A stretch of 64,000 nucleotides of DNA from an uncultured beta proteobacterium (lineage in GTDB: Bacteria > Pseudomonadota > Gammaproteobacteria > Burkholderiales > Burkholderiaceae_C). The translations under genes were made by a program, and so were the position numbers. The stretch is from contig CAIMZI010000079.1 of assembly GCA_903845935.1 (NCBI GenBank), positions 1 to 64,000 of the forward strand. Reading direction: 5' to 3'. Positions 34,215 to 42,121 of this stretch are shown piece after piece. A model generated the notes under the pieces. The model made no database searches, was not told where the DNA came from, and saw only the letters and a program-made list of their open reading frames with translations. The first letter of the stretch is position 1; every line of letters begins with the position of its first letter.

Positions 34215-34439
34215 ACGGACCATGCTTGCGACGCCATGTCGGGCACCTTCGGCAACGAGAAATTGACGACCCGGGCTTTGAAGGGTTTGCGGGCATGCGG
34301 AAATGACACGCTCTGGCCTAGTGCGCAGACTTAAGCAGGCCTTAATACGAGTTCTCCGTCACGAAACAGACACATGTAAATACTAACTTTTGGATTCCCT
34401 AAATCCGTGGGCATAACCGATGCTAGGGCAAACCCCTGG

Positions 34440-34468
34440 TTGCAATAATACTCTGTGGGGTATATGCT
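34440..34468 (+). promoter_or_regulatory. Promoter with overlapping ATACTC-N4-GGGTAT dyad upstream of SQR-like gene
   Basis: TTGCAA (34440) and TATGCT (34463) are spaced 17 bp and fit a sigma-70 promoter. Between them lies ATACTC-TGTG-GGGTAT (34448-34463), one mismatch from the perfect ATACCC-N4-GGGTAT dyads at 49953 and 51397. The dyad would block RNA polymerase if a repressor bound. It ends 46 bases before the ATG of the flavoprotein gene. Confidence 0.6.
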
Positions 34469-34509
34469 TCGTTTTGGAAGATTCGAAGCACGCAACGAGG
34501 AGACACGAT

Positions 34510-35967
34510 ATGGCGAGAATAGTAGTTCTGGGAGCCGGCATCGCCGGCCACACAGCGGCTAGGCATCTGCATTTATGGCTAGCCAAAGAACACGAGATCG
34601 TCGTCATCTCACCGAATCCCAAGTGGAATTGGATTCCCTCCAACATCTGGGTGGGCGTGGGGCAGTTGACCGAGAAAGATGTCACTTTCGATCTTGCGGA
34701 AATCTACAAAAAAACACGCATTGACTTTCATCAGGCCAAGGGCCTGTCAATTCATCCCGAGGGCAATGTGGCCAGCGCCCGCCCTTACGTCACCGTGGAG
34801 TCCACATCACCAGGGTCGGAAGGTCAGCTTGAAAACATCGACTACGATTACCTGATCAATGCCACCGGACCCAAGCTGAATTTTGGCGCAACTGAAGGGC
34901 TGGGCCCTGAGCACGGTCATACCGTGTCCGTATGTACTGCCGGTCACGCCAAAGAGGCCAATGACCAGCTTCAGGCCATTGTGGACTCACTCCAACGGGG
35001 CGAGAAGAAAACCATTGTGATCGGAACCGGTCACGGTACCTGCACCTGCCAGGGCGCAGCCTTTGAATACATCTACAACGTAGACCATATCCTTCGAGAA
35101 GCAGGCGTGCGTCATAACGCCCGCATCGTGTGGCTCAGCAATGAATTCGAATTAGGTGATTTCGGCATGGGCGGCGTTCATATCCAGCGCGGCGGTTACA
35201 TCACCAACGGGAAGACTTTCGCCGAATCCTTGATGGTTGAACGAGGCATCGAATGGATTATTCGTGCGCATGTGAGAAAGGTAGAAGCGGGCAAGATTCA
35301 TTACGAAACGCTGGATGGAATTTTCCATGAGCTGGATTTTGATTTTTCGATGCTCATTCCACCATTTAGTGGCGTTGGACTGAAAGCCTTCGACAAGGAG
35401 GATAAGGACATCAGCTCTCAGATATTTGCTGCCAGTGGTTTCATGAAAGTCGACGCGGATTACACGGCAAGGCCGTATGCAGAATGGAGCGCCAATGACT
35501 GGCCGCAGACCTATCAAAATCCCACGTATGGGAACCTCTTTGCCATTGGAATTGCATTTGCCCCACCGCACCTGATCAGCAAGCCCATGCAAAGTGCCAA
35601 TGGCACTCCCATAAACCCAGCACCGCCGAGAACGGGAATGCCTTCGGCTGCCATGGCGATTGCAGTTGCAAAAAGCATCAGGGACATGATTGCCGGCGCG
35701 AAGAAGCCCACCCACACAGCCTCTATGGCCAAGATGGGCGCCGCCTGTGTGGCTTCAACCGGCGCACATTTTTTCAGGGGCTCTGCGGCCACCATGACGG
35801 TTTACCCGATAGTGCCTGACTATGAAAAGTATCCGGAATACGGCCGCGACTTAGAACTCACCTTTGGTGAAATAGGACTTGCAGGGCATTGGATGAAAAC
35901 GCTGCTCCACCATACCTTTATCTATCAAGCACGCATGTTCCCCGGCTGGCGACTGCTTCCAGACTAA
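34510..35967 (+). CDS. Sulfide:quinone oxidoreductase-like FAD/NAD(P) flavoprotein
   Basis: A 485-aa flavoprotein of the two-dinucleotide-binding-domain family. The N-terminal FAD motif is GAGIAGHTAARHL. The PSNIWVGVGQ segment, paired cysteines (SVCTAGHA near 150, GTCTCQGAAFEY near 180), the FAIGIAFAPPHLISKP region and a C-terminal GAACVAST Cys resemble SQR/FccB-type sulfide dehydrogenases. The sulfide:quinone role is therefore likely but not proven. ATG 34510 has GAGGAG upstream; the tracked 34420 start lies before the promoter. A 52-aa protein follows, and a quinol-oxidising cytochrome bd operon lies beyond the regulator, which would complete a sulfide to quinone to oxygen path. Confidence 0.78.
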   Translation: MARIVVLGAGIAGHTAARHLHLWLAKEHEIVVISPNPKWNWIPSNIWVGVGQLTEKDVTFDLAEIYKKTRIDFHQAKGLSIHPEGNVASARPYVTVESTSPGSEGQLENIDYDYLINATGPKLNFGATEGLGPEHGHTVSVCTAGHAKEANDQLQAIVDSLQRGEKKTIVIGTGHGTCTCQGAAFEYIYNVDHILREAGVRHNARIVWLSNEFELGDFGMGGVHIQRGGYITNGKTFAESLMVERGIEWIIRAHVRKVEAGKIHYETLDGIFHELDFDFSMLIPPFSGVGLKAFDKEDKDISSQIFAASGFMKVDADYTARPYAEWSANDWPQTYQNPTYGNLFAIGIAFAPPHLISKPMQSANGTPINPAPPRTGMPSAAMAIAVAKSIRDMIAGAKKPTHTASMAKMGAACVASTGAHFFRGSAATMTVYPIVPDYEKYPEYGRDLELTFGEIGLAGHWMKTLLHHTFIYQARMFPGWRLLPD

Positions 35968-36189: not shown

Positions 36190-37542
36190 CTATGGCATGG
36201 ACTTCAGCTTGCGATACAGAGAACGCGTGCTGATTCCCAACTGGCGTGCCAGTTCGCTCCGACTGCCTGAGTGCTGGGCAACCAGTTGGGCCAGTGCAGC
36301 ACGCTCCGCATCCTTTAGCTTGGCCTGACTGGGAGCTTCAGAACGCACGGCTTGGCCGAGCTCTCCAGACTTCTTTGCGGGCAAGGAAATTCCCCCGACC
36401 CTCAGGGCACGTTCGAGATGGCTGCTTTCCAATACATCGCTATCGCACAGCAGTGAGGCCCGCTCAAGCATATTGCGCAGTTCGCGCACATTTCCAGGAA
36501 AGCGTTGCACCTGCAGCAAGTGCTGCGCGGAGGCGCTCAGGGACAGCTTACGTTGGGGACTCATGCGCTTCAATAGTGCCGAACTCAATAAGGGAATATC
36601 GTCTCTGCGCTCGCGCAGTGCCGGTAGGTAAATGGGAAAGGTGCTCAGGCGGTAATACAAGTCCTCGCGGAATGTGCCATCGGCCACCATCTGGCCTAAA
36701 TCCCTGTGGGTCGCCGAAACAACGCGAATATCCGCGTGGCGCAGCTCGGTGCTTCCCACTCTGCGGTAGGTACCGGATTCGAGCAGGCGCAGCAGTTTGA
36801 CCTGAATGGTCAGCGGAATATCACCCACCTCGTCCAGAAACAAGGTCCCGCCGCTGGCTGCCTCCACCAGTCCGCCGCGCGCGGTAGCGGCCCCGGTGAA
36901 TGCACCGCGTTCATGGCCAAACAATTCGGATTCAAACAGATTTTCCGGCATGCTGGCACAGTCCACGGCCACCAGTGGACGGTGCGCGCGCGCACTTGAT
37001 GCGTGTACCGCTTGTGCCACCAGCTCCTTACCGGTGCCAGACTCTCCCAGCAGCAGCACGGTGGCCATGGAGGGTGCCACACGCGCCACCAGGGCCAGCA
37101 TTTCCCGAAATACAGGTGATCTTCCGATGAGTCCTTTGCCCGCCGATCGCTCCTGCGTCACCCGCAAGGGCTCCATCTTTTCCACGTAATAGGCTTGCTT
37201 ACCAGCGGCATCGGCAATCGGAGTCAGCTCGATCTGTATGTACTCCTCACCCTTGGCTGTGTGGTGCAGATGCATGACGCGTTCGCGTTGCCCGGATGCA
37301 CGCGCCTGGGCCAGTGGGCAGGACTCTCCAGCCTGGTCACAGGGCATGCTGAAGTGATGGGACACCTCATAGCAGGTCCGTCCCACCACGCTTTGTGACT
37401 GGCTGAATTGCTGGCGGTATGCGGAATTGGCTGCCAGGATGCGATAGTTCGCATCAAACAATATGTGGGGTTCGCTTAAGCCCTCCAGGAAGGACATCAA
37501 CTCCGGCAGTGGCTTCACGAGAATCCTTTTTGGGGCGGTCAT
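36190..37542 (-). CDS. PAS-domain sigma-54-dependent activator (NtrC family)
   Basis: A 450-aa bacterial enhancer-binding protein. Residues about 15-120 form a PAS domain with three conserved-looking Cys ([21 protein letters not shown] spans them). The AAA+ domain follows with Walker A GESGTGKE, the sigma-54 contact loop GAFTGA and Walker [13 protein letters not shown] Fis-type helix-turn-helix ([20 protein letters not shown]) ends the protein. There is no receiver domain, so the PAS domain probably senses redox state or a ligand. It is divergent from cydP, with a sigma-54 promoter and paired dyads between them. Confidence 0.9.
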
Positions 37543-37547
37543 CAGCT

Positions 37548-37582
37548 TATGCCATCTACGGCATAGGGTGCCAATTATGGCA
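37548..37582. promoter_or_regulatory. Two TGCC-N6-GGCA dyads, putative activator binding sites
   Basis: TATGCC-ATCTAC-GGCATA (37548-37565) and TGCC-AATTAT-GGCA (37569-37582) are inverted repeats with the same half-site and 6-bp gap. Their centres are 19 bp apart, close to two helical turns. They begin just upstream of the activator start codon and about 90-120 bp upstream of the sigma-54 promoter, the usual place for enhancer sites. They may also serve autoregulation. Confidence 0.6.
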
Positions 37583-37669
37583 GCTTCCTTCTTGTCACTT
37601 TGTTTCGCTGGCCACCCGTCTGTGGCTCCAAGCCCATGAATTCATTGACCTTTCCCCCCACTTGGTTCA

Positions 37670-37685
37670 TGGCACGGTTCTTGAT
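37670..37685 (+). promoter_or_regulatory. Putative sigma-54 (-24/-12) promoter of the cydP-cydAB operon
   Basis: TGGCACGGTTCTTGAT matches the sigma-54 consensus TGGCACG-N4-TTGC(A/T), with GG and the -12 element separated by the required 10 bases. The only deviation is GA in place of GC. It lies 30 bases before the cydP ATG and downstream of paired dyads next to a divergent sigma-54 activator gene. Confidence 0.65.
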
Positions 37686-37714
37686 TGAAAATACTGGCAT
37701 ATGTATTGACCGTC

Positions 37715-37897
37715 ATGAACTTTTCCGACAAATCCCTGCTCAACAAACTGGCTGTGATGCTGGTTTTCAAGCTCGCCATCCTAGTGGCGCTGTGGTGGGT
37801 GTTTGTGCGGGAACAGCGCGTGACCGTCGATGACAGCGGCGTTGCCGCTCAACTTTTGCACCCCGCAATTGCTGCTACACAAGGAACAAATAAATGA
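37715..37897 (+). CDS. cydP: Cytochrome bd oxidase small subunit CydP
   Basis: A 60-aa single-span membrane protein. The pattern LLNKLAVMLVFKLAILVALWWVFVREQRVTVD is that of CydP, a small protein found in front of cydA in many Betaproteobacteria. The ATG at 37715 is used; the tracked 37685 start lies within the sigma-54 promoter. It overlaps cydA by 4 bases (ATGA), so translation is coupled. Confidence 0.85.
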   Translation: MNFSDKSLLNKLAVMLVFKLAILVALWWVFVREQRVTVDDSGVAAQLLHPAIAATQGTNK

Positions 37898-39453
37898 TTT
37901 CGGAACAACTGGTAGATCTGTCGCGGTTGCAGTTTGCCGCCACAGCGCTGTACCACTTTCTCTTTGTGCCACTCACCATCGGCATGGTGTGGATGTTGGT
38001 GATCATGGAGAGCGTCTATTTAATGACGGGCAATGTGATCTGGAAAGACATGACGCGCTTCTGGGGCAAGCTCTTTGGCATCAATTTTGCATTGGGCGTC
38101 ACCACCGGCATCACGCTGGAATTCCAGTTCGGCACCAACTGGGCCTATTACTCGCATTACGTGGGAGACATCTTTGGCGCACCCCTGGCCATCGAAGGGC
38201 TGATGGCCTTCTTCCTGGAATCGACCATGATTGGCCTGTTCTTCTTTGGCTGGGACCGGCTTAGCAAACCCCAGCATTTACTGGTCACCCTGCTGATGGC
38301 CGTGGGCACCAATCTGTCGGCGCTGTGGATTCTGATTGCCAATGGTTGGATGCAAAACCCAGTGGGTGCGGAGTTCAGCTACCAGACCATGCGCATGGAG
38401 ATGACCGATTTCTGGGCCGTGCTGTTCAACCCCGACGCACAGGCCAAGTTTGTGCACACGGTGTCGGCCGGCTATGCCACCGGCGCCATGTTTGTGCTGT
38501 CGATTTCCAGCTGGTATCTGCTCAAAAAGCGGAACGTGGAATTTGCCAAGCGCAGCTTTCGCGTGGCCGCCGCCTTTGGTCTGGCCTCGGTGCTGAGCGT
38601 CATCGTGCTGGGTGATGAATCGGGCTACACGGTAGGTGAGGCGCAGCAAACCAAACTAGCTGCCATGGAAGCCATGTGGGAGACCAAGCCTGCACCGGCA
38701 GGACTGACGCTGGTAGCCAGCATCAACGAGGTCGAACAGAAGAACAACTGGGAGATTGAAATTCCTTGGGTCATGGGCGTGATTGGCACGCGCTCGCTCA
38801 GCAAGGAGATTCCCGGCATTCACGAGATCAAGGCCAAGAACCGCGAGCGGATTGTGCGTGGCATCATCGCCGTCAATGCACTCGAAGCACTGCGCACCAA
38901 CCGGCAGGACGCGGTGGCCAAGCAGGTATTCGAGGAGCACAAGACAGACCTGGGTTTTGGCCTGTTGCTTAAAAAATACGTGGTCGATGTCAACACCGCC
39001 ACCCCCGAGATCATCGAGCGCGCCGTCAATGACACCGTGCCACGCGTCACTCCCATGTTCTGGGCCTTCCGTCTCATGGTCTCACTGGGATTTTCCATGC
39101 TGCTGCTCTTTGGTTTGGCCTTCTGGAGTACCTTGAAGTCGGCCTGCATGGGCAAGCCTTGGCTACTCAAAGTTGCGCTGTGGATGCTGCCCGCACCCTG
39201 GCTGGCCTGCGAGCTGGGCTGGTTTGTTGCCGAGTACGGCCGCCAGCCCTGGACCATCTATGGCGTGCTGCCCACGCACCTGAGTGTGTCAACACTAAGC
39301 GTCAACAGCCTGTATGGCTCACTGGCCGGATTCATCGGCTTCTACACCGTGCTGCTGGTGGTCGAGATGTTCCTGATGGTCAAGTTCGCCCGTATGGGCC
39401 CCGGCAGCCTGGGCACCGGTCGCTATGTCAACGAGCCGCAGTTTCATGCTTAA
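37894..39453 (+). CDS. cydA: Cytochrome bd ubiquinol oxidase subunit I
   Basis: A 519-aa heme-bearing subunit of cytochrome bd, the high-affinity quinol oxidase. Heme ligand and quinol features are visible: LQFAATALYHFLFVPLTIG at the N-terminus, GRQPWTIYGVLPT near residue 450 and a long Q-loop region between residues 230 and 380. Length is like E. coli CydA (522 aa), implying the long-Q-loop type. It follows cydP with overlap and precedes cydB by 11 bases. Confidence 0.97.
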   Translation: MISEQLVDLSRLQFAATALYHFLFVPLTIGMVWMLVIMESVYLMTGNVIWKDMTRFWGKLFGINFALGVTTGITLEFQFGTNWAYYSHYVGDIFGAPLAIEGLMAFFLESTMIGLFFFGWDRLSKPQHLLVTLLMAVGTNLSALWILIANGWMQNPVGAEFSYQTMRMEMTDFWAVLFNPDAQAKFVHTVSAGYATGAMFVLSISSWYLLKKRNVEFAKRSFRVAAAFGLASVLSVIVLGDESGYTVGEAQQTKLAAMEAMWETKPAPAGLTLVASINEVEQKNNWEIEIPWVMGVIGTRSLSKEIPGIHEIKAKNRERIVRGIIAVNALEALRTNRQDAVAKQVFEEHKTDLGFGLLLKKYVVDVNTATPEIIERAVNDTVPRVTPMFWAFRLMVSLGFSMLLLFGLAFWSTLKSACMGKPWLLKVALWMLPAPWLACELGWFVAEYGRQPWTIYGVLPTHLSVSTLSVNSLYGSLAGFIGFYTVLLVVEMFLMVKFARMGPGSLGTGRYVNEPQFHA

Positions 39454-39464
39454 CAGGACGCACT

Positions 39465-40601
39465 ATGTTTGACTATTCAACTCTCAAAATCATCTGGTGG
39501 CTGCTGGTCGGTGTTCTCTTGGTCGGCTTTGCCATCATGGATGGACACGACATGGGTGTGGGAACCCTGCTGCCCTTTGTTGGGCGCAACGATCTGGAGC
39601 GCCGCGTTGTCATCAACACGGTGGGGCCGCACTGGGACGGCAACCAGGTCTGGTTCATCACCGGTGGAGGCGCCATCTTTGCCGCTTGGCCTCTCGTCTA
39701 TGCCACTGCATTTAGCGGCTTTTACTGGGCCATGTTGGTGGTGCTGTGGGCGCTGTTCTTCCGCCCGGTGGGCTTTGATTACCGCAGCAAGATCCACAAC
39801 GCCACTTGGCGCAGCACCTGGGATTGGGGGCTGTTCATTGGCGGCTCGGTGCCTCCGCTGATCTTTGGCGTGGCCTTTGGCAACCTGCTGCAGGGGGTTC
39901 CCTTCCAGTTCGACCTCTACATGGTCTCCACGTATACAGGCAGCTTCTGGCAATTGCTCAACCCGTTTGCCCTGCTGGCCGGTGTCGTCAGCAGCGCCAT
40001 GATCACCCTGCAAGGTGGCGCCTATCTGGCCCACCGCACCGAAGGCATTATTCAGGAGCGCACCATCCGGGCGGCAACGGGTGCGGCGCTGCTGATGGTG
40101 CTGGCCTTTGTGGGCGCGGGCTTCTGGCTGCAAGGCATTGACGGTTACCGGATTGCCTCCGTCATCAGCACCAACGCCTTGCCAGACCCCATTGCCAAGA
40201 CGGTGGTCCGCGAGGCCGGTGCCTGGATGGTGAATTACGGCAAACAACCGCTGCTGTGGCTGCTGCCTGCTCTGGGCATTGGCGGTGCGTTGCTGAGCGC
40301 CTTGCTGCTTCGTCTGCGCTGGACCCTGAGTGGCTTCGTGGCCTCCTCGCTGGCCGTGCTCGGAGTCATCGGCACGGCGGGCGCGTCGATGTTTCCCTTC
40401 GTCATGCCGTCGAGTTCCATGCCGGCTGCGAGCTTGACGGTGTGGGACAGCGTGTCGAGTCACCTGACCCTTGGCATCATGTTCTGGGCCACCATGCTGT
40501 TCATGCCCCTCATCATCCTTTACACCTCCTGGGCCTATAGTGTCATGCGCGGCAAGGTGACGGCGGCCTACATCCGGGAGAACGACCATGCTGCTTACTA
40601 A
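39465..40601 (+). CDS. cydB: Cytochrome bd ubiquinol oxidase subunit II
   Basis: A 378-aa multi-pass membrane subunit of cytochrome bd. Typical features are LKIIWWLLVGVLLVGFAIMDGHDMGVG, VGPHWDGNQVWFITGGGAIFAAWP and FFRPVGFDYRSK. The ATG at 39465 begins the protein; the tracked 39159 start reads back through cydA. Its last 14 bases overlap a small downstream ORF with its own ribosome site. Confidence 0.97.
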   Translation: MFDYSTLKIIWWLLVGVLLVGFAIMDGHDMGVGTLLPFVGRNDLERRVVINTVGPHWDGNQVWFITGGGAIFAAWPLVYATAFSGFYWAMLVVLWALFFRPVGFDYRSKIHNATWRSTWDWGLFIGGSVPPLIFGVAFGNLLQGVPFQFDLYMVSTYTGSFWQLLNPFALLAGVVSSAMITLQGGAYLAHRTEGIIQERTIRAATGAALLMVLAFVGAGFWLQGIDGYRIASVISTNALPDPIAKTVVREAGAWMVNYGKQPLLWLLPALGIGGALLSALLLRLRWTLSGFVASSLAVLGVIGTAGASMFPFVMPSSSMPAASLTVWDSVSSHLTLGIMFWATMLFMPLIILYTSWAYSVMRGKVTAAYIRENDHAAY

Positions 40602-40737
40602 GCCGCCCGAGCAAGACAACGAACGCCGCAACGGCTGGGTCTTTAAAGACAAATCGGCACCTGCCAACTTGGAAGTGCCGCCGCATAAATACCTCACCGC
40701 CAGCAAGTTGCTGATCGGTGAAGACGACGCAGCCTGA
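40588..40737 (+). CDS. Small ORF in the cyd operon (49 aa), unknown
   Basis: Not in the ORF track. ATG 40588 is preceded by GGGAG at 7 bases and encodes 49 residues (MLLTKPPEQDNERRNGWVF...) ending at TGA 40735-40737. It overlaps the cydB 3' end by 14 bases and precedes cydX by 20 bases. It is hydrophilic with no membrane span. The ribosome site and position support translation, but I know no family. Confidence 0.45.
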   Translation: MLLTKPPEQDNERRNGWVFKDKSAPANLEVPPHKYLTASKLLIGEDDAA

Positions 40738-40757
40738 GCGCTGAGAAAGACAATCAC

Positions 40758-40877
40758 ATGTGGTACTTTGCCTGGATTTTGGGCGTCGGCTTTGCCGTCT
40801 TGCTGGCCATTTTGAATGCGATGTGGGGTGAAAACGAGGACGCGCGTGCCGCTGTGCGAAAGGGCAAAAAGCGGTGA
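40758..40877 (+). CDS. cydX: Cytochrome bd small subunit CydX
   Basis: A 39-aa single-helix protein, too short for the track. MWYFAWILGVGFAVLLAILNAMW followed by an acidic/basic tail is the classical CydX sequence pattern; CydX stabilises the CydAB heme centres. GAGAAAG precedes the ATG. Its TGA shares a base with the ybgE ATG (TGATG). Confidence 0.93.
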   Translation: MWYFAWILGVGFAVLLAILNAMWGENEDARAAVRKGKKR

Positions 40878-41167
40878 TGGCAAATAATGCGGTAGCCCCG
40901 GCGCCTGCGCCGAGCGCCATACACTTACCAAGCCTGCTCGCAGCACTTGCCATCATGCTGTTCGGCACCATCTATCCTCTGGCGCTCGCGCGTTCCAATG
41001 GCAGTGTGGACCATGGTTTTCTCGTAGCCCTGTTATGGGCCATGAGTGCCGGACTGGTGCGTGGCGTGGGCTTTGTGCCGCGCGCCCTCGGCTGGAAGCT
41101 ATTTTTTTCCGGCTGGTCTTGCGGGGCAGGTCTGCTTATGGCGGCAGGGTTGCGTTGGATTGTCTGA
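40877..41167 (+). CDS. ybgE: cyd operon protein YbgE
   Basis: A 96-aa membrane protein with three hydrophobic segments (SLLAALAIMLFGTIYPLAL, GFLVALLWAMSAGLVRGVGF, LFFSGWSCGAGLLMAAGL), matching the YbgE family encoded after cydX. The PRALGWKLFFS segment is family-like. Its exact role in cytochrome bd biogenesis is unknown. ATG 40877 overlaps the cydX stop by one base, so I prefer it to the tracked GTG 40874. Confidence 0.85.
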   Translation: MANNAVAPAPAPSAIHLPSLLAALAIMLFGTIYPLALARSNGSVDHGFLVALLWAMSAGLVRGVGFVPRALGWKLFFSGWSCGAGLLMAAGLRWIV

Positions 41168-41194: not shown

Positions 41195-41602
41195 ATGCCC
41201 ACTGAAACTACCATCTATGTCCAACTGGGCGGCGAAGCCGCCATCTATGCGCTGGTGAATCGCTTTTATGAACTGATGGACGCGCTACCAGAGGCGTACA
41301 CGGTGCGTCAGTTGCACCCTGAAAGCCTTGCGGGAAGTGCGACAAGCCTGTTTGAATATTTGTCAGGCTGGTTTGGTGGCCCAGCGCTTTATGTCGCCAA
41401 AAAGGGCCACCCCCGCTTGCGCATGCGCCATGCTCCCTATGCCGTGGGACCGGTGGTGCGGGATGAATGGATGCTGTGCATGACCCAGGCGCTTACCGAG
41501 CAGGTGACTGACATCGCGCTGCGCGACCAACTCATCCACACCTTTGACCAAATGGCCACCCATTTGATCAACACCGACGGCAGCCATAGTTGCGCTAGCT
41601 AG
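41195..41602 (+). CDS. Group II truncated hemoglobin
   Basis: A 135-aa 2/2 globin. The YLSGWFGGPALYV helix, proximal His in RMRHAPYAVG and the group II Trp in RDEWMLCM place it in the trHb2 (HbO) class, which binds oxygen or NO. AAGAGA precedes the ATG and the gene is 27 bases after ybgE, so it is likely part of the cytochrome bd transcript. That position suggests oxygen delivery to, or NO protection of, the oxidase (inference). Confidence 0.93.
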   Translation: MPTETTIYVQLGGEAAIYALVNRFYELMDALPEAYTVRQLHPESLAGSATSLFEYLSGWFGGPALYVAKKGHPRLRMRHAPYAVGPVVRDEWMLCMTQALTEQVTDIALRDQLIHTFDQMATHLINTDGSHSCAS

Positions 41603-41647
41603 TGCAGCTGAACCCTGAGGTTCATGAAATTTCCCCCTGGAGACCCT

Positions 41648-42121
41648 ATGAAAGCCTTTCAAGACTACTACCCCGAAAACGTCGCACAGTGTTACGGTTG
41701 CGGCTCCAACAACAGCCACGGCCACCAAATCAAGACGCATTGGGATGGCGAGGAAACGGTGACCTTTTTTACACCCGAGCCTTACCAGATGTCGGTGCCG
41801 GGTTTTGCCTATGGTGGATTGATCGCATCGCTGATTGACTGCCACGGCACAGCAACCGCCGCTGCCGCCATGTACCGGGAACAAGTGCGCGCAATGGACA
41901 GCCTGCCGCCGTTTCGCTTTGTGACAGGCTCACTGCATGTGGATTTCCTGAAACCCACGCCTATTGGGGGCGCACTGGAAATTCGCGGACGTGTCAAGGA
42001 GATCAAAGGCCGAAAAGTTATCGTGGAAATTTCGGTTTTGGCCAGCGCTGTGCTTACCGCGCGTGGCGAAGTCATCGCCGTCCAAATGCCCGAGAGCTTC
42101 GGCAGCAAACCAGGCGAGTGA
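41648..42121 (+). CDS. PaaI-like hotdog-fold thioesterase
   Basis: A 157-aa hotdog-fold protein. The core helix YGGLIASLIDCHGTATA carries the usual catalytic Asp, and LHVDFLKPTPIGGALEIRG is the central strand region. A CYGCGSNN segment near the N-terminus is common in a subclass of these enzymes. The substrate is presumably an acyl-CoA. The start is ATG 41648 with GGAGA upstream; the tracked 41624 adds eight unlikely residues. It is the last gene before a broken metal/efflux cassette. Confidence 0.85.
   Translation: MKAFQDYYPENVAQCYGCGSNNSHGHQIKTHWDGEETVTFFTPEPYQMSVPGFAYGGLIASLIDCHGTATAAAAMYREQVRAMDSLPPFRFVTGSLHVDFLKPTPIGGALEIRGRVKEIKGRKVIVEISVLASAVLTARGEVIAVQMPESFGSKPGE

Follow-up and report, generated by a model that had tools for sequence, protein, structure and literature searches.

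A conserved, predicted sigma-54 control region between a FisR-like activator gene and the cytochrome bd genes cydPAB

The cyd operon and its neighbours

The window analysed here is a stretch of 64,000 nucleotides from an uncultured beta proteobacterium of the Burkholderiaceae_C (GenBank assembly GCA_903845935.1, contig CAIMZI010000079.1, positions 1 to 64,000), and it carries a cytochrome bd operon on the forward strand. The operon begins with cydP (37715-37897) for the small cytochrome bd subunit (NCBIfam small_CydP, 42.7 bits; cut-off 29.6), followed by cydA (37894-39453; PF01654) and cydB (39465-40601; PF02322 and TIGR00203). On the same strand follow an unassigned small ORF that begins MLLTKPPEQDNERRNGW (40590-40738), a cydX-like ORF of 39 amino acids, assigned by resemblance of its translation MWYFAWILGVGFAVLLAILNAMWGENEDARAAVRKGKKR (40758-40877), and a ybgE-like cyd operon gene (40874-41167; PF09600, 69 bits). 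The next gene, for a truncated globin (41195-41602, forward strand; PF01152), probably belongs to the operon; globin genes recur in the operons of relatives. Together with a thioesterase-like ORF it fills 41195-42121 after ybgE, and this forward-strand pair may be in the cyd operon. A second cyd-like operon lies elsewhere in the genome (G000:C98 around 40988, L135), apparently with the other type of cydA.

Divergent from cydP is the gene of a regulator (36190-37518, reverse strand), which in turn lies tail-to-tail with a gene for an SQR-like flavoprotein whose family scores are weak (34420-35967, forward strand). Several related regulators have a relative of this flavoprotein (about 30% identity) as their divergent neighbour.

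The divergent regulator

The original prediction described the divergent gene as encoding a PAS/AAA+ activator with a GAFTGA motif. Pfam bears this out: the product combines PAS_4, Sigma54_activat with GAFTGA present, an AAA lid and a Fis-type HTH_8 domain. Its reading frame extends to an ATG at 37542, but the likelier start is the GTG at 37518, because this is where homologues start and because AAGGA, a Shine-Dalgarno sequence, stands ahead of it. The intergenic region is then approximately 37519-37714.

The PAS domain contains the motif C-x10-C-x6-C (Cys49, Cys60 and Cys67 numbered from the GTG, spaced 11 and 7), which is kept in nearly all relatives (38-78% identity). In a separate clade of relatives (L165-L183 and similar) the triad takes the form PCSxxGEHC; the probes used recognised none of the genes divergent from these regulators. 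The C-terminal helix LGxSxRxLYRK is common to cyd-linked and dioxygenase-linked regulators, which fits a single binding motif. FisR senses through three conserved cysteines (PMC9774590), and its tetrasulfide forms between Cys53 and Cys64 (PMC9495516); these are 11 apart, as are the first two cysteines of the window regulator. FisR of Cupriavidus pinatubonensis and Acinetobacter baumannii (PMC7315123) also has an N-terminal regulatory domain, an AAA+ domain, a Fis-type HTH and three conserved cysteines, and it too faces a divergent target operon whose promoter is predicted to depend on sigma-54. The published target is persulfide dioxygenase plus SQR, whereas the predicted target in the window is cydPAB.

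NorR, the sigma-54 activator that senses NO, likewise has AAA+ and HTH domains, a divergent layout and a respiratory detoxification target. It differs in its N-terminal domain, which is GAF and not a PAS with a cysteine triad, and the window regulator, at 312 bits, falls well below the cut-off of 476 of the NCBIfam NorR equivalog model. By its sequence, the activator is FisR-like. This point is absent from the original prediction, so that a likely reactive-sulfur signal and a shared regulon were missed there.

Elements of the intergenic region

A sigma-54 promoter had been placed at 37670, ahead of cydP, and the -24/-12 element TGGCACGGTTCTTGAT (GG-N10-GA) lies exactly there, at 37670-37685 on the forward strand, as seen by pattern scan and by conservation in relatives. 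TGGCACG-N4-TTG[AC][AT] has one match in 64 kb, where 0.08 are expected, and this match is TGGCACGGTTCTTGAT. The -24 half is perfect, and its GG is spaced correctly from the -12 half. The latter reads TTGAT, with A replacing the usual C, and so lacks the GC at -12. From GG at 37671-37672 and GA at 37683-37684, transcription is predicted to start at about 37695, which would give cydP a leader of about 20 bases. Another candidate that resembles a -24/-12 element, TGGCATATGTATTGAC at 37695, was set aside, since it extends to the cydP start codon and was not seen in relatives. Other TGGCAYGNNNCTTGA sites occur elsewhere in the genome, without upstream dyads. The genome contains rpoN.

Upstream lie two predicted activator sites, dyad 1 (TATGCC-ATCTAC-GGCATA, 37548-37565) and dyad 2 (TGCCAATTATGGCA, 37569-37582); the assignment draws on their sequence, on half-site enrichment in relatives and, for dyad 2, on the same or nearly the same dyads there. 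They do share half-sites and gap, as had been proposed, with the core TGCC-N6-GGCA at 37550-37563 and 37569-37582. They are spaced 19 bp from start to start, approximately 1.8 helical turns and not the roughly two turns first described. Relative to the predicted transcription start, the dyad centres fall at about -139 (dyad 1) and -120 (dyad 2). The tandem pair is unique in the window at up to two mismatches (0.15 expected). TGCCA-N4-TGGCA occurs 20 times genome-wide against 4 in the control, so a single dyad is not specific. Dyad 1 was also considered as a terminator hairpin, and rejected because no T run follows it.

Between dyads and promoter, 41 bp before the -24 element, lies an IHF-like site, CAAGCCCATGAAT (37629-37641, forward strand), with two mismatches to YAANNNNTTGATW. 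In 25 aligned promoters linked to the regulator, almost all of which precede cyd, a conserved block, cAAgyCyTTGAtTT, fits the IHF consensus. Sites with at most one mismatch occur in 23 of 55 related loci (about 1.9 expected), mostly at -31, -41, -51/52 and -62 from the -24 element, i.e. in steps of approximately one helical turn.

Conservation in related genomes

The family sample comprised 299 genomes, of which 56 have a relative of the regulator at E <= 1e-100. A comparison of this intergenic region across related genomes had been suggested as a check with the original prediction. Among 74 loci that combine a regulator relative with an identified divergent target (not independent, since nine come from Pseudomonas species close to one another and L070 represents the window itself), 63 contain TGGCAYR-N3-[CTA]TTG, against a mean of 0.28 after shuffling. 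In the same loci, TGCC-N6-GGCA is found in 16 (1.5 shuffled) and TGYCA-N4-TGRCA in 20 (0.4 shuffled), and there are 353 TGCCA/TGGCA half-sites versus 103 +/- 10. By this comparison, the promoter element and dyads are not chance occurrences. Many relatives have direct TGCCA repeats and no dyads; the paired dyads are thus one arrangement of a half-site array.

The base that follows TTG in the 63 elements is A in 51, T in 5, C in 5 and G in 2, and more distant members of the class mostly have TTGC or TTGT at -12. Canonical TTGC sites coexist in the window's own genome (16 versus 5 in the control), so that A at -12 characterises this group of promoters, and perhaps others too. A further sigma-54-like site of the TTGA type, TGGCACGCGACTTGA, is found at position 1500 of L133 (G000:C23:872-886), some 58 bp ahead of a gene that resembles aldehyde dehydrogenase in sequence; no TGCCA dyads accompany it.

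The regulator is divergent from cyd in many Comamonadaceae. Elsewhere in the class, 7 further family groups contribute 8 loci in which it lies beside cyd, 6 of them with the element, and it has the same neighbour in two Pseudoalteromonas records (41-43% identity). CydP has been reported as confined to Burkholderiales (PMC9104464); a CydP is annotated in Pseudoalteromonas (L130 4674-4829). The sequence comparison thus confirms a complete predicted sigma-54 control region, widely conserved, between the divergent activator gene and cydPAB.

Cyd promoters without the divergent regulator

Controls were provided by cydA upstream regions in which the regulator is not the divergent neighbour. In 24 cyd operons without a recognised cydP, the -24/-12 element was found in none. 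Eight further promoters precede cydP. Four of these are from genomes with a full-length relative of the regulator elsewhere or nearby (G053, G195, G075 and G082), and all four have the element and TGCCA clusters; the element of G082 (L231), TGGCACGGATCGTGCG, was found by eye, as the strict pattern missed it. The other four are from draft genomes in which no full-length relative was found, only partial matches to the AAA+/HTH part (G173, G038, G081 and G185), and none has an intact element. The cydP promoters of G173 and G038 contain nothing recognisable, and those of G081 and G185, which belong to one genus, retain degenerate remnants (AGGCACGAAACTTGGA in L236 and GGGCATGGAACTTGGA in L237). 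In both L236 and L237 a degenerate TGCCA array accompanies the -24/-12 remnant before cydP.

These controls bear on the possibility that the dyads function solely in autoregulation of the activator gene and that the -24/-12 match is fortuitous. The position of the dyads, approximately 31-64 bp upstream of the activator's likely GTG start, speaks for such a role. The element occurs far above chance in relatives, though, and it accompanies upstream half-sites at cydP promoters that do not adjoin the regulator gene, which makes this explanation extremely improbable.

Regulators such as FNR, ArcA or Anr usually control cydAB; they act at sigma-70 promoters and respond to oxygen or to the redox state. 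The window operon encodes an oxidase of that same kind, and its intergenic region contains no FNR-like box by the pattern used. Such boxes are present in 4 of 23 regulator-linked cyd promoters. In L009 and L010 the box (TTGATTTTTATCAA in L010) has the upstream sites on one side and the -24 element on the other, which suggests dual control in those species. It could be argued that cydPAB is transcribed mainly from a sigma-70 promoter under FNR/ANR-type control, with the sigma-54 site minor or a relic; the boxes just mentioned, the degenerate sites kept by two genomes in which no full-length regulator was found and the micro-oxic induction of cydPAB in Burkholderia cenocepacia (PMC9104464) are in line with this. 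Since the window's intergenic region shows no such box by that pattern, and the sigma-54 element, the upstream sites and the phased IHF site are all strongly conserved, such an arrangement seems highly unlikely. The core of the original prediction, that the local activator controls cydPAB through sigma-54, is strongly supported at the sequence level by conservation in family and class, by the shuffled sequences, by the cydP controls and by the presence of rpoN.

Targets of related regulators

Divergent targets with the same type of promoter comprise cydPAB, CIO-type cydA, ETHE1/Blh-like dioxygenases, SQR-like flavoproteins, Rieske, CcoG and globin. The bc1 Rieske protein (TIGR01416) and CcoG (TIGR02745) score above curated cut-offs. 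The dioxygenase of Pseudomonas has a strong match (385 bits) to one of the two domains of the Blh model, its dioxygenase part, and stays below the Blh cut-off because it is without the other. Several cyd-linked operons include dioxygenase-like genes; their shorter MBL-fold proteins score weakly, and their assignment as persulfide dioxygenase is likely but unproven.

A relative in Cupriavidus metallidurans (49% identity over 97% of the length) faces a persulfide-dioxygenase-like (pdo) gene followed by an SQR-like (sqr) gene, the same layout as published for FisR, and its locus contains TGCCA repeats and the element TGGCACGGGTTTTGAG. In a FastTree phylogeny of 125 regulators, the window regulator is in a different branch from this PDO/SQR-linked protein, on which its kinship with FisR was measured. 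The cyd label requires 20 changes on this tree versus 30.8 when shuffled: cyd linkage is clustered, yet targets have been swapped repeatedly.

Proposed mechanism and signal

The explanation that best accounts for the whole, with a probability of about 0.8, is that a FisR-type activator, together with sigma-54 and IHF, drives cydPAB in response to sulfane sulfur. Reactive sulfane sulfur (persulfide or polysulfide derived from sulfide) would be sensed by the three PAS cysteines, as in FisR. The activator would bind two TGCCA-N4-(T/C)GGCA dyads approximately 120-140 bp upstream of the start, IHF would bend the DNA 41 bp ahead of the -24 element, and the GAFTGA ATPase would remodel sigma-54 RNA polymerase at TGGCACG-N4-TTGAT. 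What the sequences show is that the elements exist, that they are conserved and phased, and that they occur together with the regulator; binding and transcription are predictions from these. The output would be a bd oxidase, and oxidases of this type have been reported as sulfide-insensitive, as is cytochrome bd in E. coli (PMC8657789).

Sulfane sulfur is the most likely signal, judging from the cysteine triad and the targets of relatives. The sulfide role is borrowed from these relatives, since no close SQR was found in the window's genome and no persulfide dioxygenase next to the window regulator. The same sigma-54 circuit might instead respond through its PAS cysteines to another poison or redox cue, such as NO, cyanide, the quinone pool or oxygen. 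The missing SQR would agree with this, as would the bd, CIO, bc1 Rieske, ccoG and globin genes found among the targets besides sulfur enzymes. Such a signal is nevertheless unlikely: the triad has FisR spacing and is nearly invariant, dioxygenase- and SQR-linked relatives included, and dioxygenase-like genes lie inside several cyd-linked operons.

Relation to known systems and significance

In several bacteria sulfide raises cydAB expression, and the literature found names no direct regulator. In A. baumannii, FisR drives the dioxygenase/SQR operon and cydAB is sulfide-induced; the text consulted does not state whether this induction needs FisR. The mostly open-access literature searched names no sigma-54 activator for cydAB, and an earlier description is possible. 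A CO-tolerant Cupriavidus (PMC10164946) was considered as a parallel and rejected, as its cydA2B2 mutation is read as making a sigma-70 promoter.

Terminal oxidases are seldom under sigma-54 control, so the case would be uncommon; the proposed circuit would tie sulfur sensing directly to a sulfide-insensitive oxidase, in a form open to testing. The promoter signature can be used to find the regulon in other genomes. More broadly, the FisR-type sensor could be a class-wide sigma-54 switch for respiration, acting on the sulfide-tolerant bd and CIO oxidases, spare bc1/cbb3 parts and sulfide-oxidising enzymes through TGCCA/IHF/TGGCAYG-N4-TTGA promoters in which A at -12 is functional; the balance for and against this wider proposal is even. 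For the bacterium itself, the circuit probably serves to bring a sulfide-proof oxidase into play once respiration is endangered by sulfur compounds.
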